64,000 nt of DNA from Bradyrhizobium sp. CB3481 (lineage in GTDB: Bacteria; Pseudomonadota; Alphaproteobacteria; Rhizobiales; Xanthobacteraceae). Both the position numbers and the translations under genes were made by a program. Below, in pieces: positions 4,713 through 16,088 of this stretch. The notes beneath the pieces are model-generated. The model was not told the DNA's origin. It searched no databases and saw only the letters and a program-made list of their open reading frames with translations. Location of the stretch: NCBI RefSeq assembly GCF_029714305.1, contig NZ_CP121647.1, positions 1,074,501-1,138,500 of the forward strand, written 5' to 3'. Position 1 is the stretch's first letter, and every line of letters begins with the position of its first letter.

Positions 4713-5156
4713 TCACCTTCCCACGCGCGTCCAGGTCTCGCCGCCGCAGAGCGCGCCGACGCAGCCTTCGACGCGCAGCGTATCCGGCCCCGCCACCGAG
4801 ATGCTGCTCGCATAGGTGCCGCCGTCGTCGGCGTTGTAGATCTGGCCCGACCATTTGTTGGCGGCGACCGGCTGCATGCCGCTGAATAGCGGCAGCCCGA
4901 GCATTGGCCGCTTCTTCATCGCAGGATTCGGATTCTTGTCATCGACCTGCGGCTTGCCGGTGGCCTGATCGATCGGCTCCTTCAGGCTGACGATCACGCC
5001 GCAGATGCCGCCGCCGCACTTGCTGATCTTCACCCGCGCGTCGCCGGCCTGGGTCTGCCAGACTCCGCTCGGCTCGGCGGCACCTTGCGCGAAAGCGGAT
5101 GTTGCGGCCAGAAATGCCGCGGTGACAGCGATGACGAGAGTTTTTGTGCAAGCCAT
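4713..5156 (-). CDS. DUF2147 family exported protein
   Basis: 147 residues. An N-terminal signal peptide (VIAVTAAFLAATSAFAQ, cleavage near residue 24) sends it to the periplasm. The mature part fits DUF2147: an early GVWQTQAGDARVKI, paired cysteines (CGGGIC), a central KWSGQIYNADDGGTY and a closing LRVEGCVGALCGGETW. DUF2147 is a small beta-barrel-like domain of unknown function. The gene stands alone on the minus strand between a repeat and the MATE gene. Start chosen because it gives a standard n-region before the hydrophobic core. Confidence 0.8.
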   Translation of the reverse strand: MACTKTLVIAVTAAFLAATSAFAQGAAEPSGVWQTQAGDARVKISKCGGGICGVIVSLKEPIDQATGKPQVDDKNPNPAMKKRPMLGLPLFSGMQPVAANKWSGQIYNADDGGTYASSISVAGPDTLRVEGCVGALCGGETWTRVGR

Positions 5157-5244
5157 GAATCATTCCCCGAAAAAAGCAGGCTTGCATAGCAACAAATCAG
5201 ATTTGTGCAACGTACGATTGCGTGTGTGTGGCGTGAGCTGTGGG

Positions 5245-6627
5245 TTATTTGCCCCAGTCTGCGAGGCGAATCGACAGCGCCGTGCCGAGGCCATAAACGA
5301 CCATGGCGCCGCCCACCAGCGCGAACAGGGTCCAGGCCGGTGCGCCGATCGAGGCCAGCAGCCAGCCACCGCCGCCGACGATCAATAGTCGCGCGGTGCC
5401 GGCCATCACGGGACCGCCGACCTTTGCCGCGCCTTGCGACGAGAAATAGAGGCAGGCGCCCATTCCAAAAAAGGCGAACGCCGGGCCTGCCCAGACGAGA
5501 TAGGTCGAAGCAGCAGTGGTGACGCCGGGATCGCTGGTAAACATCGAGACCCAGAGCGAGGGCATGACTGCGACAATAAGTCCGATCGCGCCCACCGTGA
5601 TGGCGGCCGCAGCGCCCGCGGTCCACGCCACCTGCCGCGCGCGCGTCACTAGGCCGGCGCCCATCGCCATCCCGACCATCGGCACGGAGGCGACGCCGAA
5701 CGCGAAAGCGATCGGCGTCAGCAGAAATTCCAGCCGCGAGCCCATGCCGTAACCGGCCAGCGTCGCAGTGCCATAGCCGGCGAGAATTTTGGTGAAGATC
5801 AGCACGGTGAGCACCGTCTGCAGCGGCGACAGACAGGACACCGCGCCGACCTTGAGGATATCGAAAAACAGGTCACGCTCGAACTTGAAGCCCTTGAAGT
5901 TCAGCGTCAGGCGGCTGTTGCCGCTGAGCAGATACCAGGCGAGGAAGATCGCCCCGAGCGTGAAGGCCGTGAACTGGCCGGCGGCAACGCCGCCCATGCC
6001 TAGCTGGGGCAGGCCGAGCAGGCCGAGGCCGAGCGCGCCGCCAACCGCGACCTGAACGAGTGCCGTGCCGATCAGCGTCACCGAAGGAATCCGCATGTCG
6101 CCGGTGCCGCGCACTACCGAGGCCAGCGTGTTGACCAGCCATATTGAAATCGCACCGGAGAACAGCACGTGCGAATATTGCATCGCTTCGTCGAGCACGC
6201 CGCCGCGTCCGCCAAGCAGCGTATAGAACGCGCGGCCGAACACCAGCATCGTCACCGTGAAGAACAGCCCCGCGCAGGCGCCGATCATCGCCGCATGCAA
6301 CGCCAGCGTCGCTGCGCGGTCGCGATTTCCCGCGCCGAGCGCGCGGCTGATGGCGGAGGAAACGCCGCCGCCCATCGCGCCCGCCGACATCATCTGGGTA
6401 AGCATGACGAACGGAAACACCAGCGCGACGCCGGCGAGCGGCTCGGTGCCGAGCCGGCCGATATAGGAGGTCTCGGCGACCGCCACCAGCGTGGTGCCGA
6501 CCATGGCGATCGCATTGGGGAGCGCGAGTTTCAACAGCGTCGGCAGGATCGGGGAGGTGAGGATCGCGCTGGTCGGCGCTGAGGGAACCGCGGCGGGACG
6601 CATGTCGATCGGGGCATCAATGGTCAT
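5245..6627 (-). CDS. MATE family efflux transporter
   Basis: 460-residue inner-membrane exporter with about twelve hydrophobic segments arranged as two homologous six-helix halves. The MATE pattern shows early in LALPNAIAMVGTTLVAVAET and FVMLTQMMSAGAMGGGVSSA, and again at residue 245 onward (LKVGAVSCLSPLQTVLTVLI). Members export organic cations or drugs using Na+ or H+ gradients; the substrate cannot be read from the sequence. The N-terminus (MTIDAPIDMRPAAVPSAP) is cytoplasmic. No regulator is adjacent. The region upstream (6645-6690) is unusually AT-rich and probably holds its promoter. Confidence 0.9.
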   Translation of the reverse strand: MTIDAPIDMRPAAVPSAPTSAILTSPILPTLLKLALPNAIAMVGTTLVAVAETSYIGRLGTEPLAGVALVFPFVMLTQMMSAGAMGGGVSSAISRALGAGNRDRAATLALHAAMIGACAGLFFTVTMLVFGRAFYTLLGGRGGVLDEAMQYSHVLFSGAISIWLVNTLASVVRGTGDMRIPSVTLIGTALVQVAVGGALGLGLLGLPQLGMGGVAAGQFTAFTLGAIFLAWYLLSGNSRLTLNFKGFKFERDLFFDILKVGAVSCLSPLQTVLTVLIFTKILAGYGTATLAGYGMGSRLEFLLTPIAFAFGVASVPMVGMAMGAGLVTRARQVAWTAGAAAAITVGAIGLIVAVMPSLWVSMFTSDPGVTTAASTYLVWAGPAFAFFGMGACLYFSSQGAAKVGGPVMAGTARLLIVGGGGWLLASIGAPAWTLFALVGGAMVVYGLGTALSIRLADWGK

Positions 6628-6713
6628 GCGTCACCGGTGACCCAAATCAATAGATTATGGATGACATATTATTTAGCGGTTATGCTCCAAGCCACCTGCG
6701 GCGAATGCAGGGG

Positions 6714-7253
6714 TCACCATGGCAGGCCGCATAGGTCGATTATTCCATCGCGCGGCTTGCGCGTGAAATCGAATATGTAGGGGGCCATGACTTCGAAGCG
6801 AATTCTTCCCTCCGGCTGTTCGGCATAGACTTCGCCCTCAAAACGGTGCCAGCCGCGCGCCTGGTAGAACGCCTCGTTGTGCGGCTCGCAGAACAGGATC
6901 GCAAACCTGACGGCTTCGTGATCGCGCAGCATCCTGATGGCGGCGTTCAGCGCCAGCGTGGCGTAGCCGCGGCCGCGGCAATCCTCACGGGTCGAGACGC
7001 CGCCGATGCCGCCGATCTGCACCTTGCGCCCGTCCCAGGTGCCGGTCCGGAAATAGACGCCGACATGGCAGGCAAGCCCGGGTGTCGGCGAATCCTCCGG
7101 CGCGTCGATCAGCACACGCAGATCCGCGTTCGCCCATTTGACGCGGCCCCAGGGCAATTTCTCCAGGACATGGCGAGGCCAGACCGCCTGCATCAGCGGC
7201 TCGGCCCGTCGCCATGAGGAGTCCCCGTTCAGAACGTCGATTTCGATGCTCAT
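6714..7253 (-). CDS. GNAT family N-acetyltransferase
   Basis: 179 residues from the ATG at 7253; an upstream in-frame TTG would add seven residues. The acetyl-CoA motif A is clear (GIGGVSTREDCRGRGYATLAL, where RGRGYA is the pyrophosphate loop), followed by motif B (FAILFCEPHNEAFYQARGW). The layout LPWGRVKWAN...GVSTREDCRGRG loosely recalls AAC(2')-type aminoglycoside acetyltransferases, but similarity at this level does not fix the substrate. It has its own transcript direction next to the MATE gene (87 bases away), so the two could be one unit. Confidence 0.8.
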   Translation of the reverse strand: MSIEIDVLNGDSSWRRAEPLMQAVWPRHVLEKLPWGRVKWANADLRVLIDAPEDSPTPGLACHVGVYFRTGTWDGRKVQIGGIGGVSTREDCRGRGYATLALNAAIRMLRDHEAVRFAILFCEPHNEAFYQARGWHRFEGEVYAEQPEGRIRFEVMAPYIFDFTRKPRDGIIDLCGLPW

Positions 7254-7377
7254 TTCACTGCCACACTGTGTCAAATCCCGGTGTTCGGGCCCCCGTCATA
7301 CGCTGGACGCGGAGAAGCCTTACCTGAGAACCCCTCCGTTTTGCCAAATTGCGGTGTTTAAGCGCAATGGAACCTTC

Positions 7378-7383
7378 TATAAG
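7378..7383 (+). promoter_or_regulatory. Possible -10 element upstream of superoxide dismutase
   Basis: TATAAG lies 44 bases before the sod start in an otherwise GC-rich region. No convincing -35 hexamer sits 16-18 bases upstream, so the assignment is weak. Confidence 0.25.
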
Positions 7384-7427
7384 AGTTTCCCGTTAGACTA
7401 CTCTCCCATCAGTTCGGACATCACCCC

Positions 7428-8030
7428 ATGACCTTCACGCTGCCCAATCTACCCTATTCCCACGACGCCCTTGCGCCCCACATGTCCAAGGAGACGCTGG
7501 AATATCACCACGACAAGCATCACCAGGCTTACGTGACCAACGGAAACAACGCGATCAAGGGGACTGAATTTGAAGGCAAGTCCCTGGAGGAGATCGTCAA
7601 GGCTTCGTTCGGCAAGAACCCGGCCGTGTTCAACAATGCCGGCCAGCACTACAACCATCTGCATTTCTGGAACTGGATGAAGCCGAACGGCGGCGGCAGC
7701 AAGCTGCCCGGCCGTCTGGAAAAGAAGATCACCGAGGATCTCGGCGGTCTCGAAAAATTCAAGGCCGATTTCGCCGCCGCCGGCGTCGGCCAGTTCGGCT
7801 CCGGCTGGTGCTGGCTGTCGGTCAAGAACGGCAAGCTGGAAATCTCCAAGACCGCGAACGGCGAAAGCCCGCTGGTCCATGGCGCGACGCCGATCCTCGG
7901 CTGCGACGTCTGGGAGCACTCCTACTATATCGACTACCGCAACCGCCGTCCCGATTATCTCAAGGCGTTCTGCGATCATTTGATCAACTGGGACTATGTC
8001 GACGAGCTGTTCGGCAAGGCCGGCGGTTAA
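7428..8030 (+). CDS. sodB: Superoxide dismutase (Fe/Mn family)
   Basis: Converts superoxide to oxygen and hydrogen peroxide in the cytosol. 200 residues, the standard length. All four metal ligands are visible: His27 (YHHDKHHQAY), His74 (NNAGQHYNHLHFW), Asp160 and His164 (GCDVWEHSYYIDY). Metal specificity, Fe versus Mn, cannot be decided by eye, so the symbol is the conventional one for this single-domain form. No signal peptide. The gene is followed directly by a palindromic repeat that could serve as its terminator. Confidence 0.95.
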   Translation: MTFTLPNLPYSHDALAPHMSKETLEYHHDKHHQAYVTNGNNAIKGTEFEGKSLEEIVKASFGKNPAVFNNAGQHYNHLHFWNWMKPNGGGSKLPGRLEKKITEDLGGLEKFKADFAAAGVGQFGSGWCWLSVKNGKLEISKTANGESPLVHGATPILGCDVWEHSYYIDYRNRRPDYLKAFCDHLINWDYVDELFGKAGG

Positions 8031-8041
8031 GTTTTAGCAGC

Positions 8042-8122
8042 GTCATTCCGGGGCGGCGCGAAGCGACGAACCCGGAATCTCGAGACTCCGGGTTCGCTGC
8101 TTTCGCATCGCCCAGGAATGAC
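8042..8122. repeat. Dispersed repeat, GTCATTCC...GGAATGAC family (copy 1)
   Basis: Inverted repeat immediately after sod with outer arms GTCATTCC and GGAATGAC and an inner pair AACCCGGAATCTCGAGA / GACTCCGGGTT. A second family member is at 63647-63760. Confidence 0.75.
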
Positions 8123-8264
8123 TCTGAGCAAGTTAGAAGGGGCGGTGGCTGCGGCTACCGCTCTTTTTCGTTGGCACGTGTGTCCTCCGCTCCTTGCACA
8201 GATCGCCCACCTACGGCACAAGCACTCTGCCGGGTGACTTTCGCTGACGTGGAAAACTGCTGCA

Positions 8265-8639
8265 ATGAGCTATCTACTGGTCTTTGTCGGGGGCGGCCTC
8301 GGCGCGTCGCTGCGCCATCTGATCAACATCACCTGCGCGCGCTGCATGGGCACTGGGTTTCCCTGGGGCACTTTCATCATTAATATTACAGGCTCGACCG
8401 TGATGGGGCTGATCGCGGGCTATCTTGCCTTCAAGGGCGAGGCGTCGCAGCCTTGGCGGATTTTCCTGATGACCGGCGTCCTCGGCGGCTATACCACGTT
8501 CTCGGCCTACTCGCTCGATGCGGCGCTGCTCTACGAGCGCGGCGAGCTGATGCTTGCGGCGCTTTACGTGATCGGCTCCGTCGCGCTCTCGATCGCCGGC
8601 CTGTTCGGCGGCCTCGCGCTGGTCCGCCAGTTCGCCTGA
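8265..8639 (+). CDS. crcB: Fluoride efflux channel CrcB/Fluc
   Basis: Small dual-topology channel exporting fluoride across the inner membrane. 124 residues with four hydrophobic segments. Family signatures are the N-terminal GGGLGASLRHLIN, the pore motif NITGSTVMGLIAGY and the phenylalanine-box region GVLGGYTTFSAYSLDA. A single copy is present, so it probably works as a homodimer. The region upstream was examined for a fluoride riboswitch and none was recognised. Start ATG is preceded by only a weak GGAAAA. Confidence 0.95.
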   Translation: MSYLLVFVGGGLGASLRHLINITCARCMGTGFPWGTFIINITGSTVMGLIAGYLAFKGEASQPWRIFLMTGVLGGYTTFSAYSLDAALLYERGELMLAALYVIGSVALSIAGLFGGLALVRQFA

Positions 8640-8786
8640 GCCACGGCCCGTACGAACACGGGTCTGCGTGACGTCCTCGCATAGGCATGCCTGACAAGCG
8701 CATGGGTATCGTGCGAGCTTCCGTTTGCTTCGTCACAAGGGCCGGACTAAGCAGGATGCAATCGCATCGCCCGCAACCCCATCGCC

Positions 8787-9380
8787 TTGTCCGACCCTCC
8801 GCAAAAAGATCCGGCGCCCGCCGACGACACCGAGCCAAAACCCAGGCGGGCCCGCAAGCCGGTCGGCTGGTCGATGATCTTCATCGGTGTGCTTGTCGTG
8901 GTCAGCGCCGCGCTGGTGTGGCGGCGCGACGGGATCGACGGCGTGCTCAAGATTCTCTCGCATGATCTCCTGCTGTTCGGTGAAATCATCCCGCGCGTGC
9001 TCGCTGGCTGCCTGCTTGGCGGCTTCATCGCGGAAATTCTGCCGCACGACAAAGTCTCGCGCTCGCTCGGTCCGGAATCCGGCCTGAAGGGCCTTTTGAT
9101 CGGCACGGCATTCGGCGCGATTCTGCCCGGTGGTCCCTTCACTGCCTATCCAGTGGCGGCGGCGCTTTTGACCGTTGGCGCCGATTTCGGCGCTACCATC
9201 GCCATGGTGGTGAGCTGGACGCTGATCGGCTACGGCCGCGCGGTCGCCTGGGAATTGCCGATCCTCGGCACCGACTTCACGCTGTGGCGCATCGTGATCT
9301 CGCTGCCGATCCCGGTGCTGGCCGGCGCGCTCGGCCGGCTCGTGTTTGTCCGGATGTACCCGAAGGGCGAGCCCGAATGA
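8787..9380 (+). CDS. Permease half-gene A (UPF0718/ArsP-like)
   Basis: 197-residue membrane protein with a charged, proline-rich N-terminus, then about four hydrophobic segments. Conserved-looking features are GEIIPRVLAGCLLGGFIAE and the re-entrant-type GAILPGGPFTAYP. These match one half of the two-fold repeated permease family often annotated UPF0718 (YraQ/ArsP-like), whose members are normally single chains of about 300-350 residues. Its stop overlaps the start of the next gene (ATGA), so the halves are probably translationally coupled. The start used is a TTG without a good ribosome site, so the N-terminus is uncertain. Substrate unknown. Confidence 0.65.
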   Translation: MSDPPQKDPAPADDTEPKPRRARKPVGWSMIFIGVLVVVSAALVWRRDGIDGVLKILSHDLLLFGEIIPRVLAGCLLGGFIAEILPHDKVSRSLGPESGLKGLLIGTAFGAILPGGPFTAYPVAAALLTVGADFGATIAMVVSWTLIGYGRAVAWELPILGTDFTLWRIVISLPIPVLAGALGRLVFVRMYPKGEPE

Positions 9381-9880
9381 CGGCATCGGCCCTGATCATC
9401 GACGTCACGCTGTGGGGTTCGGTCGCACTCCTCGGATTCATGGCGTGGCGGCGCGGCCGCGTCGTGCTGGTGTCGTCGGTGCGCGAAGGCTCGATGGACT
9501 TCATCAACATCGTGCCGCGCATTGCGCTCGGTGTGATCGGCTCGGGCTACATCGCCGCCGTCATCCCACCGGAGGTGATCACCGGCTGGCTCGGCCCCGA
9601 CAGTGGCTGGCTCGGCGTCCTGACCGCAGTAATCGCCGGCGCGGCCACGCCGGGCGGCCCGGTGGTCGGTTTTTCGATCGGCGCGGTGGCGCTCAAGGTC
9701 GGCGGCGGATCGCCGCAGGTAATCGCCTATGTCGTCGCCTGGGCGCTGTTCGCCTTCCAGCGCATGATCCTCTGGGAAATCCCGTTCATGCCGGCGAAAT
9801 TCGTCTGGTTTCGCGCCGCGGTCTCGCTGCCGTTTCCGTTTCTCGCGGCAGCGATCGCGATGGCGATCGGCAAACCGTGA
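9377..9880 (+). CDS. Permease half-gene B (UPF0718/ArsP-like)
   Basis: 167-residue membrane protein starting at the ATG that overlaps the previous stop codon. It repeats the layout of half A: NIVPRIALGVIGSGYIAAVIP, WLGPDSGWLGVL, then GAATPGGPVVGFSIGAVAL and a final pair of hydrophobic segments. The shared GPxSG and PGGP motifs in both halves suggest gene A and gene B form a heterodimer equivalent to one full-length two-repeat permease. A longer upstream extension of the frame runs inside gene A and is unlikely to be used. Confidence 0.7.
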   Translation: MTASALIIDVTLWGSVALLGFMAWRRGRVVLVSSVREGSMDFINIVPRIALGVIGSGYIAAVIPPEVITGWLGPDSGWLGVLTAVIAGAATPGGPVVGFSIGAVALKVGGGSPQVIAYVVAWALFAFQRMILWEIPFMPAKFVWFRAAVSLPFPFLAAAIAMAIGKP

Positions 9881-9940: not shown

Positions 9941-10168
9941 ATGACCCGCTTGTTCGAACAGGCTGTTGAGGCCGTCTCCGCCCTGCCCGAGGAGGCGCAG
10001 GATGATCTTGCGCGAATTCTGCTGCAGCTCGCGGGCGTGGATCAGCCGCCCTATGAACTGACGCCGGAGGAGGCCGCCGACCTCGATGCTTCGCTGGCGG
10101 AAGCCGCGCAGGGGGAGTTCGCGACGGATGATGAAGTCCGCGCGGTATGGGCGAAGCATGGGCTGTGA
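9941..10168 (+). CDS. Antitoxin-like protein of a ParDE/RelBE-type module
   Basis: 75-residue acidic protein (LFEQAVEAVSALPEEAQDD; ELTPEEAADLDASLAEAAQ; ATDDEVRAVWAKHGL). The helical N-terminus, the 'LTPEE...DLDASLAEA' middle and the C-terminal 'F.TDDEVRAVWAKHG' are typical of small antitoxins or addiction-module components that sit in front of ParE/RelE toxins. Its stop overlaps the GTG start of the toxin frame by four bases, the usual translational coupling. The antitoxin is intact although its toxin partner is broken. Confidence 0.75.
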   Translation: MTRLFEQAVEAVSALPEEAQDDLARILLQLAGVDQPPYELTPEEAADLDASLAEAAQGEFATDDEVRAVWAKHGL

Positions 10169-10453
10169 AGGTCCGTTACACACGCCGGGCGCTGCGCCAG
10201 CTTGCCGAAATTCTCGACTACATTGACGCACGTTCGCCGCAAGGCGCAGACAACGTCAAGCGGCGGCTCAACGCCGTGATCGATCTGCTCGCACAACATC
10301 CGAATTCCGGACGCCTTACCCGCAGGGAAGGCATCCGCAAGGCGGTGGCAAGGCCGTATCCGAAGGCCGTATCCGTATGTGATTTTCTATCGGCCCGATG
10401 CAAGCGGCATTGTCGTCCACGGGATCAGGCATGCCGCACGCAGACCGCTTTAG
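10165..10453 (+). pseudogene. ParE/RelE-family toxin, frameshifted by a 13-bp tandem duplication
   Basis: From the GTG at 10165 the frame reads as a ParE/RelE fold toxin: VKVRYTRRALRQLAEILDYI, then ARSPQGADNVKRRLNAVIDL and HPNSGRLTRREGIRKAVARPYP. At 10350-10375 a 13-base unit (AAGGCCGTATCCG) is present twice in tandem and shifts the frame. Removing one unit restores PYPYVIFYRPDASGIVVHGI followed by RHAARRPL and a stop at 10451, giving 91 residues, a normal toxin length. As written the frame runs on to 10710 with unrelated sequence. The C-terminal strand that completes the toxin core is lost, so the product is probably inactive. Confidence 0.8.
10350..10375 (+). repeat. 13-bp perfect tandem duplication inside the toxin gene
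   Basis: AAGGCCGTATCCG occurs at 10350-10362 and again at 10363-10375 without any difference. Because 13 is not a multiple of 3, it changes the reading frame of the toxin gene. Confidence 0.95.
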
Positions 10454-10476
10454 CAGCGTCGATTTATGAACTTCGT

Positions 10477-11054: not shown

Positions 11055-11073
11055 AATGTTATATTATAACGTC
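11055..11073. promoter_or_regulatory. Zur-box-like palindrome upstream of the zinc operon
   Basis: AATGTTATATTATAACGTC contains the perfect palindrome GTTATA-T-TATAAC (11058-11070). This closely matches the known Zur operator core (ATGTTATANTATAACAT). It is an AT-rich island in very GC-rich DNA, lies six bases before the first operon ATG and could overlap a -10 element. Zinc-loaded Zur bound here would block transcription of the importer. Confidence 0.75.
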
Positions 11074-11078
11074 TTTCC

Positions 11079-11258
11079 ATGCCGCATTTGCATACCCATG
11101 ACCACGCCCATTACGCCCATTCCCATGGTCCGGCGACGCCCCATCCGGCGCAGGCGGCGCCCTGGTCGATCCTGCGGATGACGGTCGCCGCCCGCCTCGC
11201 TGCGGCCCTGGCGGTCTCGGCCGCGCTGTGGGCCGTCGTGCTGGTCGCGATGAGGTGA
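11079..11258 (+). CDS. 59-residue His-rich single-pass membrane protein in the zinc operon
   Basis: Starts MPHLHTHDHAHYAHSHG, with eight histidines in the first 22 residues in an alternating HxHxHxH pattern. A Pro/Ala linker (PATPHPAQAAPW) and one hydrophobic helix (ARLAAALAVSAALWAVVLVA) follow, ending MR. It has no recognised family. It begins six bases after the Zur-like box and ends two bases before znuC, whose ribosome site (GAGGTGAG) overlaps its last codons, so it is the first gene of the operon. It resembles CbtB only in having a single helix plus His cluster, but the cluster here is N-terminal. Likely role, by inference: zinc binding or delivery near the ZnuBC importer. No Shine-Dalgarno is visible, consistent with a leaderless transcript. 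Confidence 0.65.
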   Translation: MPHLHTHDHAHYAHSHGPATPHPAQAAPWSILRMTVAARLAAALAVSAALWAVVLVAMR

Positions 11259-11260
11259 GC

Positions 11261-12016
11261 ATGGCGGCGCAGCTCAATCTCCACAACGTCACGCTGGGCT
11301 ATGACCGCCATCCGGCGGTGCATCATCTCACCGGCGAGGTGGCCGCTGGCGCGCTGCTGGCGGTGATCGGGCCGAACGGCGCCGGCAAGTCGACGCTGTT
11401 TCGCGGGCTCGCCGGAATCCTGAAGCCGCTCTCCGGATCGATCGATCTCGGCGGCCTCGATGTCAGAGACATCGCCTATCTGCCGCAGAGCGTCGATATC
11501 GACCGCAGCTTTCCGATCTCGGTGTTCGATTTCGTCGGCACCGGCCTGTGGCGATCCATCGGGTTTTTCGGCGGCATGGGAAAGCCGGCGCAGGGCAAGA
11601 TCACAAGAGCGCTCGCCGCCGTCGGCCTCAACGGGTTTGAAAGCCGTTCGATCGGCACACTGTCGGGCGGCCAGACCCAGCGCATGCTGTTTGCGCGTGT
11701 GCTGCTGCAGGATGCGCGCCTGATTGTGCTCGATGAACCCTTCAACGCCATCGACACCAAGACCTCGGCCGATCTGCTGGCGCTGGTGAAGCGCTGGCAC
11801 GGCGAGGGCCGTACTGTATTGGCGGCGCTGCACGACATGGAGCTGGTGCGCGACCATTTTCCCGAAACCTTGCTGCTCGCGCGCGGGCCGGTGGCGTGGG
11901 GCCCGACCGCCGAGGTGCTTAACGCCGAAAACCTGATGGTCGCCTTGCGGATGTGCGAGGCGTTCGACGACAGCGCCGCCGCCTGCGCCGACGATTTGCC
12001 GTCGCGGGCCGCCTGA
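11261..12016 (+). CDS. znuC: Zinc ABC transporter ATP-binding protein ZnuC
   Basis: 251-residue ATPase energising metal uptake. Walker A is GPNGAGKST (residues 37-45), the signature is LSGGQTQRMLFARVLL, Walker B is LIVLDEPFNAI and the H-loop His is in LAALHDMELV. Start placed at the ATG with GAGGTGAG just upstream; an upstream in-frame GTG inside the preceding gene is less likely. Its stop overlaps the znuB start (TGATG). The zinc assignment rests on the Zur-like box, the adjoining His-rich and G3E genes, and the ligand set of the binding protein; manganese cannot be fully excluded from this subunit alone. Confidence 0.9.
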   Translation: MAAQLNLHNVTLGYDRHPAVHHLTGEVAAGALLAVIGPNGAGKSTLFRGLAGILKPLSGSIDLGGLDVRDIAYLPQSVDIDRSFPISVFDFVGTGLWRSIGFFGGMGKPAQGKITRALAAVGLNGFESRSIGTLSGGQTQRMLFARVLLQDARLIVLDEPFNAIDTKTSADLLALVKRWHGEGRTVLAALHDMELVRDHFPETLLLARGPVAWGPTAEVLNAENLMVALRMCEAFDDSAAACADDLPSRAA

Positions 12017-12885
12017 TGCTGTACGACGCGCTGATCGCGCCCTTCACCGAATTCGAGTTCATGCGCCGCGCGCTCGCCGCCGTGGTCGCGCTCGCGCTTG
12101 GCGCCGCGCCGATCGGCGTTTTCTTGATGCTGCGGCGGATGAGCCTCGTCGGCGACGCCATGGCGCATGCGATCCTGCCGGGCGCGGCGATCGGCTTCCT
12201 CGTCTCCGGCCTCAATCTGTTCGCGATGACGACCGGCGGGCTGATCGCGGGCTTCACGGTCGCGCTGCTTGCCGGCCTGGTCGCGCGCAATACCGAGCTG
12301 AAGGAGGATGCCTCGCTCGCGACCTTCTACTTGGTTTCGCTCGCGCTTGGCGTCACCATCGTTTCCGTCAAGGGCACCAATATCGATCTTCTGCACGTGC
12401 TGTTCGGCAACATTCTGGCCATGGACGACCAGACGCTGCTCGTGATCGCCTTCAATGCGACGATCACGCTGCTGGTGATGGCGATCATCTACCGTCCCCT
12501 GGTGATCGAATGCGTCGACCCGGTATTCCTGCGCACGGTCAGCCGCGCCGGCGCGCCTGCGCATCTGGCATTCCTGGCCCTCGTCGTGATCAATCTCGTC
12601 AACGGCTTTCACGCGCTCGGCACCTTGCTCGGCGTCGGCCTGATGATCCTCCCCGCCGGCATCGCGCGGTTCTGGTCGCGCGACATCACCGGCATGATCT
12701 GCATCGCGGTCGCCAGCGCGATCGTGTCAGGCTATGCCGGGCTGGTGCTGTCGTTCCAGACCACGATCCCTTCAGGCCCCGCGATCATCCTGATTGCTGC
12801 CGGGCTCTACGTGGTGTCGCTGCTGTTCGGATCCGTCAGCGGCCTTATCCGGCAGATGTTCCCCGGCCGGCATTTGGAGGCATAG
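12016..12885 (+). CDS. znuB: Zinc ABC transporter permease ZnuB
   Basis: 289-residue inner-membrane permease of the ABC-3 family with about eight or nine hydrophobic segments. Family motifs include the N-terminal FMRRALAAVVALALGAAPIG, RRMSLVGDAMAHAILPGAAIG (the conserved 'LxGDAxxHAxLPG' coupling region) and the late GVGLMILPAGIARFW. Start overlaps the znuC stop by one base, so translation is coupled. It would form the homodimeric channel receiving zinc from the periplasmic binding protein encoded next. Confidence 0.92.
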   Translation: MLYDALIAPFTEFEFMRRALAAVVALALGAAPIGVFLMLRRMSLVGDAMAHAILPGAAIGFLVSGLNLFAMTTGGLIAGFTVALLAGLVARNTELKEDASLATFYLVSLALGVTIVSVKGTNIDLLHVLFGNILAMDDQTLLVIAFNATITLLVMAIIYRPLVIECVDPVFLRTVSRAGAPAHLAFLALVVINLVNGFHALGTLLGVGLMILPAGIARFWSRDITGMICIAVASAIVSGYAGLVLSFQTTIPSGPAIILIAAGLYVVSLLFGSVSGLIRQMFPGRHLEA

Positions 12886-12887
12886 CG

Positions 12888-13757
12888 ATGATCCGGCTTT
12901 GGCTCGTCGCTCTCGCGATGTTCATCGCTACTGGGTCCGCGCGAGGGTCAGAGCGGCTCAACGTCGTCGCCAGCTTCTCGATCCTCGGCGATTTCGTCCG
13001 CAATGTCGGCGGCGATCGGGTCAGCGTCACGACACTGGTAGGACCCGACAGCGACGCGCATGTCTATACGCCGACGCCGGCTGACGCCAAGAAGATCGCC
13101 GATGCCAGGCTGATCTTCGTCAACGGTCTCGGTTTCGAAGGCTGGCTGCCGCGGCTGGTGCAATCCGCCGGCAGCAAGGCGAAGATTGTCACCGCGAGCG
13201 ATGGCATCTCTCCCCTCCGGTTGGGGTCGGCCGCCGATCCCCATGCCTGGCAGTCGGTCACCAATGCGAAGGTCTATGTCGCCAATATCAGCCTCGCGCT
13301 CTCGGCCGCCGATCCAGCCTCTGCCGAGGAGTTCATGAAGAATACGCAGGCCTATATTGAACAGCTCGATGCGCTCGACCGCGAGGTCCGCGACGCCATC
13401 GCAAAGCTGCCGGAGGGCCGGCGCAAAGTGATCTCGACCCACAACGCCTTTGGCTATTTCGCCGCTAGTTATGGTATCGAGTTCATCGCGCCGCTCGGCG
13501 TCTCCACCGAATCCGAACCGAGTGCGCGGGACATCGCCAAAATCATCACTCAGATCAAGGCGGCCAAAATACCGGCGGTGTTCCTCGAAAATATCACCGA
13601 CCCCCGCCTGATGGGCCGGATCTCGGCCGAGACCGGCGCCAGGATCGGCGGAACACTCTATTCGGACAGTCTAACGGGCGAAAAGGGCGATTCTCCCACT
13701 TACATTGCGATGGTCAGGCACAATATAAAGGCCCTGACCGGCGCGCTGAGCCCATAG
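12888..13757 (+). CDS. znuA: Periplasmic zinc-binding protein (ZnuA/AztC-like)
   Basis: 289-residue cluster A-I (TroA-like) solute-binding protein with a cleavable signal peptide (LWLVALAMFIATGSARG). Metal ligands can be placed as His58 (DAHVYTPTP), His119 (ADPHAWQSV), His185 (STHNAFGYF) and Asp260 (YSDSL), a 3 His + 1 Asp set typical of the zinc subgroup. It lacks the long His/Asp-rich loop of E. coli ZnuA, as in AztC-type proteins. The missing loop makes the His-rich first protein of the operon more interesting as a separate metal collector. Starts two bases after znuB. Confidence 0.9.
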   Translation: MIRLWLVALAMFIATGSARGSERLNVVASFSILGDFVRNVGGDRVSVTTLVGPDSDAHVYTPTPADAKKIADARLIFVNGLGFEGWLPRLVQSAGSKAKIVTASDGISPLRLGSAADPHAWQSVTNAKVYVANISLALSAADPASAEEFMKNTQAYIEQLDALDREVRDAIAKLPEGRRKVISTHNAFGYFAASYGIEFIAPLGVSTESEPSARDIAKIITQIKAAKIPAVFLENITDPRLMGRISAETGARIGGTLYSDSLTGEKGDSPTYIAMVRHNIKALTGALSP

Positions 13758-13812
13758 GGCAGGGGCCTCCCTGCCTGCCGGCGCGTCCCAAATTTTCCGC
13801 TCCGGAGCGATT

Positions 13813-14868
13813 ATGTCTGAACTTTCGTCCCAAAAAATTCCAGTGACCGTGCTGACGGGCTATCTCGGCGCCGGCAAGACCACGCTGCTCAACCGCATCC
13901 TGTCGGAAAACCACGGCAAGAAATACGCCGTCATCGTCAATGAATTCGGCGAGATCGGCATCGACAACGACCTCATCATCGGCGCCGATGAGGAAGTGTT
14001 CGAGATGAACAATGGCTGCGTCTGCTGCACCGTACGCGGCGATCTCGTCCGCATCATGGATGGGTTGATGAAGCGCAAGGGCAAGTTCGACGCCATCATC
14101 GTCGAGACCACGGGGCTCGCCGATCCGGCCCCCGTGGCGCAGACCTTCTTCGTCGACGAGGACGTGCAGAGGAACGCGCGGCTCGACGCCGTCGTGACGG
14201 TGGCCGATGCGAAGTGGCTGAGCGACCGCCTGAAGGATGCGCCGGAAGCCAAGAACCAGATCGCGTTTGCCGACGTCATCGTGCTCAACAAGACCGATCT
14301 CGTCTCCAAGCCGGAGCTCGCCGAGGTCGAGGCCCGCATCCGCGGCATCAACCCTTACGCAAAGCTGCACCGCACCGAGCGCTGCAAGGTGGCGCTGGCT
14401 GACGTACTGGAGCGCGGCGCGTTCGACCTCGACCGCATCCTGGAGATCGAGCCGGAATTCCTCGATGCCGGCGACGACCATCATCACCACGATCATGATC
14501 ATCATCATGACCACGACCACCACCATGATCACAGCCACAGCCATGGCGGGTTGAAGCACTATCACGACGAGGACATGCAGTCGCTCTCGCTGCGCTCGGA
14601 CAAGCCGCTCGATCCCACAATCTTCATGCCCTGGCTGCAAAACCTCGTCGCCACAGAGGGCCAAAAGATTCTGCGTTCGAAGGGCATCCTCGCTTTCGCC
14701 GACGACGACGATCGCTACGTCTTCCAGGGCGTGCACATGATGCTGGAAGGCGATCATCAGCGGAAGTGGAAGGAAGGCGAGCCGCGCGAAAGCCGTGTCG
14801 TCTTCATCGGCCGCGAGTTGCCGGAAAAGACGATCCGCGAAGGTTTTGAAGCCTGTATCGTTATGTGA
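13813..14868 (+). CDS. COG0523 G3E GTPase (CobW/ZagA-like metallochaperone) with His tract
   Basis: 351-residue cytosolic GTPase. Walker A GYLGAGKT is at residues 16-23, the metal-binding CxCC motif is Cys69-Cys72 (NNGCVCCTVRGD), the switch region holds VETTGLADPAP, and the guanine motif is NKTD (159-162). Residues 221-251 form a tract in which nearly every residue is His or Asp, ending HSHSHGG, before the C-terminal CobW_C domain. Proteins of this subgroup hand zinc to client enzymes under zinc starvation. It lies 55 bases after znuA with no Zur-like box between, so it is read as part of the operon. Confidence 0.92.
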   Translation: MSELSSQKIPVTVLTGYLGAGKTTLLNRILSENHGKKYAVIVNEFGEIGIDNDLIIGADEEVFEMNNGCVCCTVRGDLVRIMDGLMKRKGKFDAIIVETTGLADPAPVAQTFFVDEDVQRNARLDAVVTVADAKWLSDRLKDAPEAKNQIAFADVIVLNKTDLVSKPELAEVEARIRGINPYAKLHRTERCKVALADVLERGAFDLDRILEIEPEFLDAGDDHHHHDHDHHHDHDHHHDHSHSHGGLKHYHDEDMQSLSLRSDKPLDPTIFMPWLQNLVATEGQKILRSKGILAFADDDDRYVFQGVHMMLEGDHQRKWKEGEPRESRVVFIGRELPEKTIREGFEACIVM

Positions 14869-14887
14869 GGCGAAGAAGATCGAACTC

Positions 14888-15892
14888 ATGTCTTCCGAAC
14901 AGCTCTCAATAGCATCTATGACCGACCGCGTGAAACCCGTCGCGGTCGGCGCGCCGGTCGCCGCGGTGCACTTTCTCGGCGATGTCGCCGCCTTCGTCTG
15001 CGCGGAGGAGAAGGTCGCGCTCGCCGGCGTTGATGGCGAAGTCTCGCGCACCGACGTGCATGGCGGTGCCATCCTCTGTACGGCGTCCGATGGCAAGCGA
15101 GTAGTCACCGGCGGCGATGACGGCAAGGTCGTCGCGTTGAATGCCAAGGGCGAAACGTCCGTGCTCGCGACCGACGCCAAGCGGCGCTGGATCGACAACG
15201 TTGCGCTGCATTCCGACGGCACCGTGGCATGGTCGGCTGGCAAGACCGCATTCATCCGCAGCGCAAAGGGCGAGGAGAAGAGTTTTGATGCGCCTTCGAC
15301 CGTGGGCGGACTGGCGTTTGCGCCGAAGGGCCTGCGCGTCGCAGTGGCCCATTACAACGGCGTGACGCTTTGGTTTCCCAACATGGCGGCGAAGCCGGAA
15401 TTCCTGGAATGGGCCGGCTCGCATCTTTCCGTGACCTTCAGTCCGGATAACAAGTTCCTCGTCACCGCCATGCATGAGCCGGCGCTGCACGGCTGGCGGC
15501 TCGCCGACAACAGACACATGCGGATGAGCGGCTATCCCGGCCGCGTCCGCTCGATGTCGTGGAGCGCCGGCGGCAAGGGGCTCGCCACCTCGGGCGCGGA
15601 CACCGTGATCATCTGGCCGTTCAACAGCAAGGATGGTCCGATGGGTAAGCAGCCCGCGATGCTGGCGCCGTTGCAAGCGCGCGTCTCCTCAGTCGCCTGT
15701 CATCCGAAGCAGGAGTTCATGGCGGCCGGGTATAGCGACGGCACCATCCTGATCGTGCGTTATGAGGATGGCGCGGAAATTCTGGTGCGCCGCAATGGCA
15801 GCGAGCCAGTCTCCGCGCTCGGCTGGAACGCGAAAGGCACGCTGCTGGCTTTCGGCACCGAGGATGGCGACGCCGGGATGATGGAATTCTAG
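14888..15892 (+). CDS. WD40-type beta-propeller protein of the zinc operon
   Basis: 334 residues with degenerate WD40 blades, clearest in the second half: VRSMSWSAGGKGLATSGAD-TVIIWPF, VSSVACHPKQEFMAAGYSDG and VSALGWNAKGTLLAFGTEDG. No signal peptide is visible, so it should be cytosolic, where the G3E GTPase acts. It starts 20 bases after the GTPase gene, so it looks like the last gene of the zinc operon. An alternative start is the ATG at 14918. In AztABCD systems a secreted beta-propeller (AztD) is a zinc chaperone; a cytosolic propeller beside a G3E GTPase is a different arrangement. Its function is not known to me. Confidence 0.75.
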   Translation: MSSEQLSIASMTDRVKPVAVGAPVAAVHFLGDVAAFVCAEEKVALAGVDGEVSRTDVHGGAILCTASDGKRVVTGGDDGKVVALNAKGETSVLATDAKRRWIDNVALHSDGTVAWSAGKTAFIRSAKGEEKSFDAPSTVGGLAFAPKGLRVAVAHYNGVTLWFPNMAAKPEFLEWAGSHLSVTFSPDNKFLVTAMHEPALHGWRLADNRHMRMSGYPGRVRSMSWSAGGKGLATSGADTVIIWPFNSKDGPMGKQPAMLAPLQARVSSVACHPKQEFMAAGYSDGTILIVRYEDGAEILVRRNGSEPVSALGWNAKGTLLAFGTEDGDAGMMEF

Positions 15893-15911
15893 GCATAGGG
15901 CGTCATGAATC

Positions 15912-16012
15912 CCTCATGGTGAGGAGGCGCGTTAGCGCCGTCTCGAACCATGAGGCCCAGACGGGCCTGCATCCTTCGAGACGCGGCGAAGACGCCGCTC
16001 CTCAGGATGAGG
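15912..16012. repeat. Dispersed repeat, CCTCATGGTGA...AGGATGAGG family (copy 2)
   Basis: CCTCATGGTGAGGAGGCGC at the start and CTCCTCAGGATGAGG at the end, with internal GTCTCGAACCATGAGGCC and ATCCTTCGAGACG. The same element as 4563-4693 without the nested hairpin. It lies just after the zinc operon and could end its transcript. Confidence 0.75.
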
Positions 16013-16088
16013 GGCTTGAGCAGGTTCCGCGCGGAACCATGCGTCCGGCCGGCCGTTGATCCGCGAAATGATTTCGTGGGTGAACGAT

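Follow-up and report, generated by a model that had tools for sequence, protein, structure and literature searches.

Zinc importers of the ATP-binding cassette (ABC) type that belong to cluster A-I are described, in the available excerpts of PMC6689063, as three-part systems, and the same excerpts present AztD as a periplasmic propeller that serves the binding protein AztC in Paracoccus. In P. denitrificans pden1595-1598 are listed as aztABCD, and the available part of that source (PMC5387054) lists no small gene among them. A second described system is subfamily 5 of the COG0523 GTPases, to which most eukaryotic members are assigned and whose prokaryotic members cluster with WD40, znuABC and creatinase genes, several of them lying after a Zur site (Haas et al. 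2009, PMC2770081, in excerpt); the association of COG0523, WD40, znuABC and Zur has therefore been in print since 2009, and the excerpts of that report mention no small membrane protein. Here we analyze a six-gene operon of Bradyrhizobium sp. CB3481, located in a stretch of 64,000 nucleotides (nt) of contig NZ_CP121647.1 (hereafter the window, to which positions refer unless another contig is named). The operon encodes an AztABC-like importer, a COG0523 GTPase and a WD40 protein, all preceded by a small gene that we call S (Table 1). The core of the operon is known and S is its new part: an unnamed, widespread microprotein with an Arg-Trp helix, which stands beside AztAB-like importers in the genomes searched and may be an overlooked part of a metal importer.

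Comparison of the transporter genes with the curated NCBIfam models shows that the best models are AztA, AztB and AztC, each scoring below its cut-off, and we therefore use the term AztABC-like. The first-pass annotation had named these genes znuC, znuB and znuA; the importer family was correct, and the Znu names were not, as the ZnuA, ZnuB and ZnuC models reach only 66, 85 and 89 bits against cut-offs of 268, 284 and 306. What the locus has in common with ZnuABC of the Escherichia coli type is a predicted cluster A-I zinc ABC importer under putative Zur control, with PF00005, PF00950 and PF01297 all over cut-off in one operon. The resemblance to the Paracoccus denitrificans AztABCD system (NF040873, NF040871, NF040870 and NF038015) is closer and extends to the A-B-C gene order, the protein families and a Zur box upstream of aztA. 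Moreover, an alignment with the closest solved structures spans nearly all of the window binding protein. These structures, 5kzj and 5w56, are listed as "Periplasmic solute binding protein" and we take them to be Paracoccus AztC. Zinc is the probable substrate, and the binding protein keeps residues resembling metal ligands, namely the His of DAHVY, DPHAW and THNAF and the Asp of YSDS. However, there are differences between the two systems. The window protein has no His between DAHVY and DPHAW, where 5w56 carries a His-bearing loop, which agrees with the earlier remark that the usual His loop is lacking. In addition, S is present here, and the GTPase and WD40 genes follow the importer in place of AztD. 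No AztD match (NF038015) was found in the host genome, and a control set gave matches in 2 of 14.

The S protein is short, and its core is a single C-terminal helix with a conserved Arg and a Leu-Trp pair rather than the His tract. R39 and W51 are invariant across 21 aligned S rows, and the number of His residues before the helix ranges from 0 to 19 across loci. Only 9 of 60 rows from outside the host family have at least four His in this region (L179 was dropped, as it is not S), so the description of S as in essence a His-rich collector is not supported. The 21 members match no Pfam or NCBIfam family, none scoring below E 0.02; the best values obtained for S, 0.027 in Pfam, 0.065 in NCBIfam and 0.13 in the Protein Data Bank (PDB), are not worth calling. 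Tiny one-helix proteins encoded beside a transporter are not without parallel: KdpF, and CbtB/CbiN of cobalt uptake, are single-helix small subunits of other transporters. S resembles them in size, topology and genomic position, and differs in having no worthwhile match in these three collections. A profile search with S returned 1,754 database proteins at E ≤ 0.001 among 8,000 candidates scored. The 120 listed S-like proteins are all named "hypothetical protein" except P0082, which bears a sulfurtransferase label, and none of the 120 has a precomputed Pfam domain. No description of S came up in searches of open-licence PMC papers.

Substitution patterns indicate that S is translated. Across 77 pairwise comparisons of named loci, which all include the window sequence and hence are not independent, the median ratio of nonsynonymous to synonymous substitution (dN/dS) is 0.219 for the S core (dS 0.65), close to the 0.175 of aztA and the 0.246 of aztC, which points to a gene under purifying selection. 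At 79 loci, 1,041 of the 1,962 S mismatches fall at third codon positions. Together with its restriction to the transporter neighborhood, described below, these data give strong confidence that S encodes a genuine protein and belongs with this transporter group.

Loci for these analyses were hand-picked: 60 from the host family (L041-L100), drawn from 139 strong WD40 matches for a spread of genera and for contig room; 60 from other families (L136-L195), drawn from 115 aztB places in Alphaproteobacteria; and 20 at phylum level (L196-L215). From the plasmid collection 10 of 43 records were taken. The list of small open reading frames (ORFs) was compiled at each locus by taking the ORF upstream of aztA with the best membrane-helix score, and so neither this list nor the topology count drawn from it (below) proves anything alone; the evidence for the S family comes from profile hidden Markov model (HMM) and whole-genome tests. 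S is present in 39 of 39 host-family loci that have aztA and an uncut upstream side, and the 3,325 ORFs of the 20 host-family stretches without aztA contain no S match below E 0.27. An HMM of the core, built without the His tract from the 39 host-family sequences, was run on 9,599 stop-to-stop ORFs from the 60 other-family azt loci. It gave 34 matches at E ≤ 0.01. Of these, 33 lie directly upstream of aztA, and the remaining one (L185) is on the same strand roughly 1 kb farther upstream; at E ≤ 0.1 the figure is 45 of 46. Reversed ORFs gave no match at E 0.01.

Whole-genome searches, in which the 21-row alignment A1 served as query and up to 16 first-look candidates were scored per genome, gave a similar picture. 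Among 387 Alphaproteobacteria S was matched in 76, exactly once each among the candidates scored, and in 73 of the 76 the match precedes aztB by 724-1139 nt on its strand (64 of 67 when the nine genomes that supplied alignment rows are removed). The exceptions are G161, with S 1.85 kb upstream on the same strand; G276, where S is at a contig edge and there is no aztB match; and G382, where aztB starts another contig. In a sample of 397 genomes from across the phylum, which overlaps the first, 71 genomes have one S match each, and all 71 are found 671-979 nt upstream of an AztB match, on its strand (58 of 58 without 13 genomes, 12 row suppliers and one more); 33 of the 71 are from other classes. 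The distance of 0.7-1.1 kb corresponds to the room taken by aztA. With a second-round model, S was also found before aztA in 13 of the 20 phylum-level loci, including 10 of the 11 from other classes. Named records with S include Skermanella, Methylobacterium, Gemmobacter, Neisseria, Comamonas, Bartonella and Thioclava. The Neisseria gonorrhoeae record (L300) has an S-like small ORF directly upstream of related importer genes, and thus the S family reaches Betaproteobacteria. In the plasmid-collection records of Skermanella and Comamonas, S is a hypothetical protein of 46 amino acids; no coding sequence is listed at its position in Bartonella and Thioclava, and in the Gemmobacter record S and aztA are both unlisted. 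The gene tables of this collection are stated to be incomplete.

AztD-bearing clusters differ in this respect. S was not found before aztA in five clusters that have AztD or a close relative (L197, L200, L296, L301 and L302), among them Paracoccus versutus (L296), Sinorhizobium numidicum (L301) and a Klebsiella plasmid (L302), nor was it found in L196-L200, whose AztB scores are over the NCBIfam cut-off. Seven named clusters without AztD in the stretch carry S, although in three of them the second-round model is needed for significance. A tree was made of 107 permeases, including three distant outgroup rows; in it, the eight AztD-type or over-cut-off AztB proteins and L203 form one clade of nine with a support of 1.0. 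This clade is nested among S-bearing permeases, in a tree with weak backbone support and a distant outgroup. The arrangement suggests one loss of S at the base of the branch that holds the studied Paracoccus type; L205, L183, L184 and L194 would then be further losses or missed cases.

The six genes lie on one strand, separated in order by 2, -1, 2, 55 and 19 nt. From their sequences, these genes and the Zur-like box appear to constitute a real zinc-starvation operon, as first described.

Table 1. The operon and its parts, with window positions
Feature	Position	Strand	Remarks
Zur-like box ATGTTATATTATAACGT	11056-11072		ends 6 nt 5' of first ATG
S, 59 amino acids, 8 His; single-helix membrane protein with His-rich N-terminus	11079-11258	+	core R39, L50-W51, V54
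aztA-like importer ATPase	11261-12016	+	PF00005 1.5e-24; NCBIfam AztA 209.1 bits (cut-off 220)
aztB-like permease	12016-12885	+	PF00950 1.4e-51; NCBIfam AztB 258 bits (cut-off 280)
aztC-like binding protein, no His loop	12888-13757	+	PF01297 1.6e-89; AztC 301 bits (cut-off 350)
COG0523 (G3E) GTPase, CVCC at residues 69-72	13813-14868	+	PF02492 5.1e-60; PF07683 9.2e-28
His/Asp tract of the GTPase (about residues 223-244)	14479-14544	+	
WD40 beta-propeller, 334 amino acids, cytosolic (no signal peptide by eye)	14888-15892	+	PF00400 1.9e-16

The gene order is kept in relatives. All six genes, the end genes included, are present in order at 77 of 80 named loci retrieved via the permease, and the other three (L231, L239 and L284) are cut contigs; the proposal of one Zur-controlled-looking unit that combines zinc import with a metallochaperone GTPase is supported. 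S, aztA, aztB, GTPase and WD40 are in order at 39 of the 60 host-family loci, 35 of them with aztC in place. The other four of the 39 (L068, L072, L073 and L094) read S-aztA-aztB-GTPase-WD40, with no match to a binding protein in between.

The box that had been noted before the first gene is the sole match without mismatch to ATGTTATANTATAAC in the single-contig 8.04-Mb genome. With up to two mismatches, the rest of the genome holds a cluster at 6,646,303-6,646,470 and a lone site with two mismatches; the pattern reversed as a control gave 3 + 3 matches in the same genome. Within the window, the chance expectation at up to three mismatches is 0.18, and 4 of 100 shuffles had at least two matches. 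The 420 nt before aztA also contain a Zur-like box (up to 4 mismatches of 16) in 93 of 119 loci, and in 96 of the 119 no more than 5 of 100 mononucleotide shuffles equal its score. The operon thus has a putative Zur box at its promoter. In 64 of 67 S-bearing loci the start codon, taken as the first in-frame ATG, GTG or TTG, lies 0-69 nt behind the box. A fixed spacing between box and S was considered and rejected on this spread, the distance being 12 nt or less in 25 loci.

The distribution of charge indicates how S sits in the membrane. Among 89 small-ORF rows that score 1.5 or more for a helix and have the W motif, 54 have more Lys and Arg before the helix than after it, 35 are tied and none shows the reverse. 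By the positive-inside rule, this excess places the N terminus in the cytosol. With a His-rich tail on that side, S could receive zinc as the permease releases it, and would not substitute for a periplasmic loop. The reading that we favor, and consider somewhat more probable than not overall, is that of a Zur-repressed unit around an AztABC-like importer, in which S is a one-helix accessory subunit whose His tail may relay zinc to the GTPase. The operon would be a Zur-repressed zinc-starvation unit built round this importer, and S would span the membrane as an N-in single helix with its Arg at the cytosolic helix edge and the Leu-Trp pair within the helix. Most likely the helix packs against AztB, and the sequence data allow moderate confidence that S contacts this permease. 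In the host lineage, zinc released by AztB could be picked up by the cytosolic His-rich tail and delivered to the His/Asp tract of the COG0523 GTPase from the same operon. The GTPase would load client enzymes, and the WD40 protein might be its partner or scaffold; we put forward the handover to the GTPase and the role of the WD40 protein with little confidence.

A broader and tentative proposal, which we consider less probable than not, is that a large branch of zinc ABC importers has an overlooked fourth subunit, the one-helix Arg-Trp protein, that the AztD-type systems are a derived branch which lost it, and that in Bradyrhizobium and its kin a cytosolic His arm couples import to allocation through the GTPase. 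If S does belong to the complex in much of the Pseudomonadota, structures and reconstitutions without S would be incomplete for that part. S would also be a physical candidate for the passage of zinc from an importer to a metallochaperone GTPase of the COG0523 family.

Several observations weigh against S as a general subunit of these importers. No S was found at E 0.001 in 38 of 113 aztB-bearing genomes (aztB match at 1e-40); some of the 38 have S at the weaker scores of the locus test (for example G391 = L146 and G457 = L150), so the true S-bearing fraction lies between. Nothing was found upstream of aztA in L183, L184 and L194, even at E 10, and the second-round model found no S in L203 and L205. 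The AztD-bearing clade does without S. The Trp is replaced by Tyr in L172 and so is not invariant everywhere. In addition, some of the whole-genome matches come from close relatives of the model rows, and the set lacks phylogenetic independence. Finally, most S proteins outside the host family have few or no His, and hence a zinc relay cannot be general.

A role of one kind for the genes at both ends of the operon, as suggested earlier, is not supported, since the two ends behave differently. S goes with the transporter, and the GTPase and WD40 genes do so only in part. Elsewhere in the host family, 9 of the 60 loci have a GTPase-WD40 pair and no aztA, two (L046 and L082) have the two genes apart, nine have WD40 with no GTPase within the stretch, and L059, whose upstream end is cut off, has aztABC with GTPase and WD40 apart. 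Outside the host family, both genes lie behind azt on the same strand in 13 of 60 azt stretches, and likewise in the Skermanella and Gemmobacter records. They were not seen in the remaining 47, searched up to 4.5 kb behind aztB (contig ends cut some of them short, at least five, L144, L160, L164, L187 and L192, less than 2 kb from aztB), and in 35 of these 47 S is found before aztA at E ≤ 0.1.

The GTPase itself has the cobW and CobW_C domains and the CxCC motif of G3E GTPases, and the three Cys of its CVCC are invariant in 65 sequences. It scores far below the cut-off for ZigA (NF038288; 202.5 bits against 600), and its likeness to COG0523 subfamily 5 (PMC2770081, in excerpt) is one of gene neighborhood only, the subfamily members also being found beside WD40 and znuABC and with Zur sites. 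Strong orthologues of the WD40 protein (E 4e-102 or better) occur in 139 of 149 host-family genomes; of the other ten, six give only weak matches and four give none. The protein carries invariant His, Asp and Trp residues, which by themselves do not prove a metal site. Like AztD it is a propeller whose gene closes an azt operon; unlike the periplasmic AztD it is of the WD40 type, with no visible signal peptide, and represents a separate family. A relationship to AztD was rejected on the absence of an AztD match from the genome and on the WD40 families assigned by Pfam, a judgment made without alignment. The neighbors of stand-alone WD40 genes, with ORFs judged by eye only, show no common zinc theme. 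Caulobacter zrpW was discarded as a parallel: in the available excerpt of PMC4176598 its product is a putative transporter with six helices, not a WD40 protein.

These patterns raise a real possibility, one against which we lean only slightly, that the GTPase and WD40 genes are a constitutive zinc-allocation module merely joined to the Zur operon in this lineage, so that the operon is not one pathway. Indeed, 20 of 60 host-family stretches have WD40, with or without the GTPase, and no aztA; L059 has both genes apart; and the two were missing from view in most azt stretches elsewhere. In searches limited to the 300 nt upstream, none of the 21 flagged GTPases and none of the 13 flagged WD40 genes, with 11 in each set lying away from azt, showed a Zur-like box, and the link of both to Zur therefore comes from their place in this operon. 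Against a merely joined module stands the recurrence of the pair behind azt on the same strand, both in the 39 host-family loci and in the 13 other-family loci, Skermanella and Gemmobacter. The published Zur sites upstream of several subfamily 5 members (PMC2770081, in excerpt) point the same way, and a span of 300 nt leaves room for boxes farther upstream of the stand-alone genes.

The favored view of S as an accessory subunit also has to be weighed against other functions for the protein. Some single-helix small proteins modulate other transporters negatively. S could likewise act in quality control, holding AztB closed or marking it for degradation once zinc returns. The synteny and topology data would fit such a modulator equally, and a variable His-rich cytosolic tail would suit a zinc sensor. 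However, the shared Zur box suggests that S is induced together with the importer, which is the wrong timing for an inhibitor unless zinc binding switches S, and we consider this function unlikely. It is more improbable still that S serves aztA only as a leader peptide or a translational coupler, with an idle product. S is short and comes first after the Zur box, at the spacing given above, and its stop overlaps or abuts the aztA start in many loci, all of which a coupler would explain. Such a role does not account for selection on the amino acids (dN/dS 0.22), nor for the retention of the Arg and Trp across classes while length and tail are free to vary; in L173, L176, L167, L189 and L181, moreover, S is 45-83 nt from aztA, too far for simple coupling.

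The least probable alternative is the first-pass proposal, in which S collects metal at the membrane and its tail and the GTPase tract together stand in for the His loop that the binding protein lacks. This proposal draws on the 8 His of S beside a loop without His and on an inverse raw rank correlation between S-His and AztC-loop-His (-0.295, p = 0.01, 75 loci; -0.33, p = 0.005, in the contrast set), and we reject it because the relation vanishes with independent contrasts (r = -0.02, p = 0.86, 71 contrasts), the charges and the cytosolic GTPase put both His-rich segments on the other side of the membrane from the periplasmic loop, and tail and loop are both His-bearing in L070 (19 and 8 His) and L071 (14 and 13) and both without His in L140, L163 and L174.

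His-rich segments also occur on the ATPase. AztA C-terminal tails with at least six His are found in L136 and L180, where S has no His; in the S-less loci L196-L200; and in L194, with S unrecognised. These tails would fit a cytosolic zinc acceptor where S has no His or is absent, and we take this as a hint. A rule by which the His tail is on either S or the ATPase C terminus was rejected, as the cases are too few and L209, with six His on the AztA tail and a His-bearing S, breaks the pattern; it leaves a hint for the cytosolic side.

Other features of the window and of the host genome were noted. A consensus scan found no sigma-70-like promoter, and its two terminator-like sites, fewer than in shuffles, both lie within aztB (12100-12120). 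Immediately 3' of the WD40 gene, at 15893-16060, is a stretch that by eye resembles a palindromic repeat; the terminator scan gave no hairpin with a T run there. Upstream of the operon, at 9941-10470, is a pair of small ORFs that by eye we take to be antitoxin-like and ParE/RelE-like, the second of which seems disturbed in frame near a short tandem duplication. Elsewhere in the genome, in the stretch C1:6640000-6656000 (L040, at about 5024-9410), the second cluster of Zur-like sites (C1:6646303-6646470) lies between a divergent COG0523 GTPase of 405 amino acids and a small protein of 135 amino acids, which is followed by a 792-amino-acid ORF that by eye resembles a TonB-dependent receptor; this locus probably serves the same zinc response at the outer membrane. 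At C1:34708-35060 (L102 and L103) the two parts of a Fur-family domain lie in different reading frames, a sign of either a frameshift or a sequencing error, and the genome has three further Fur-family matches.

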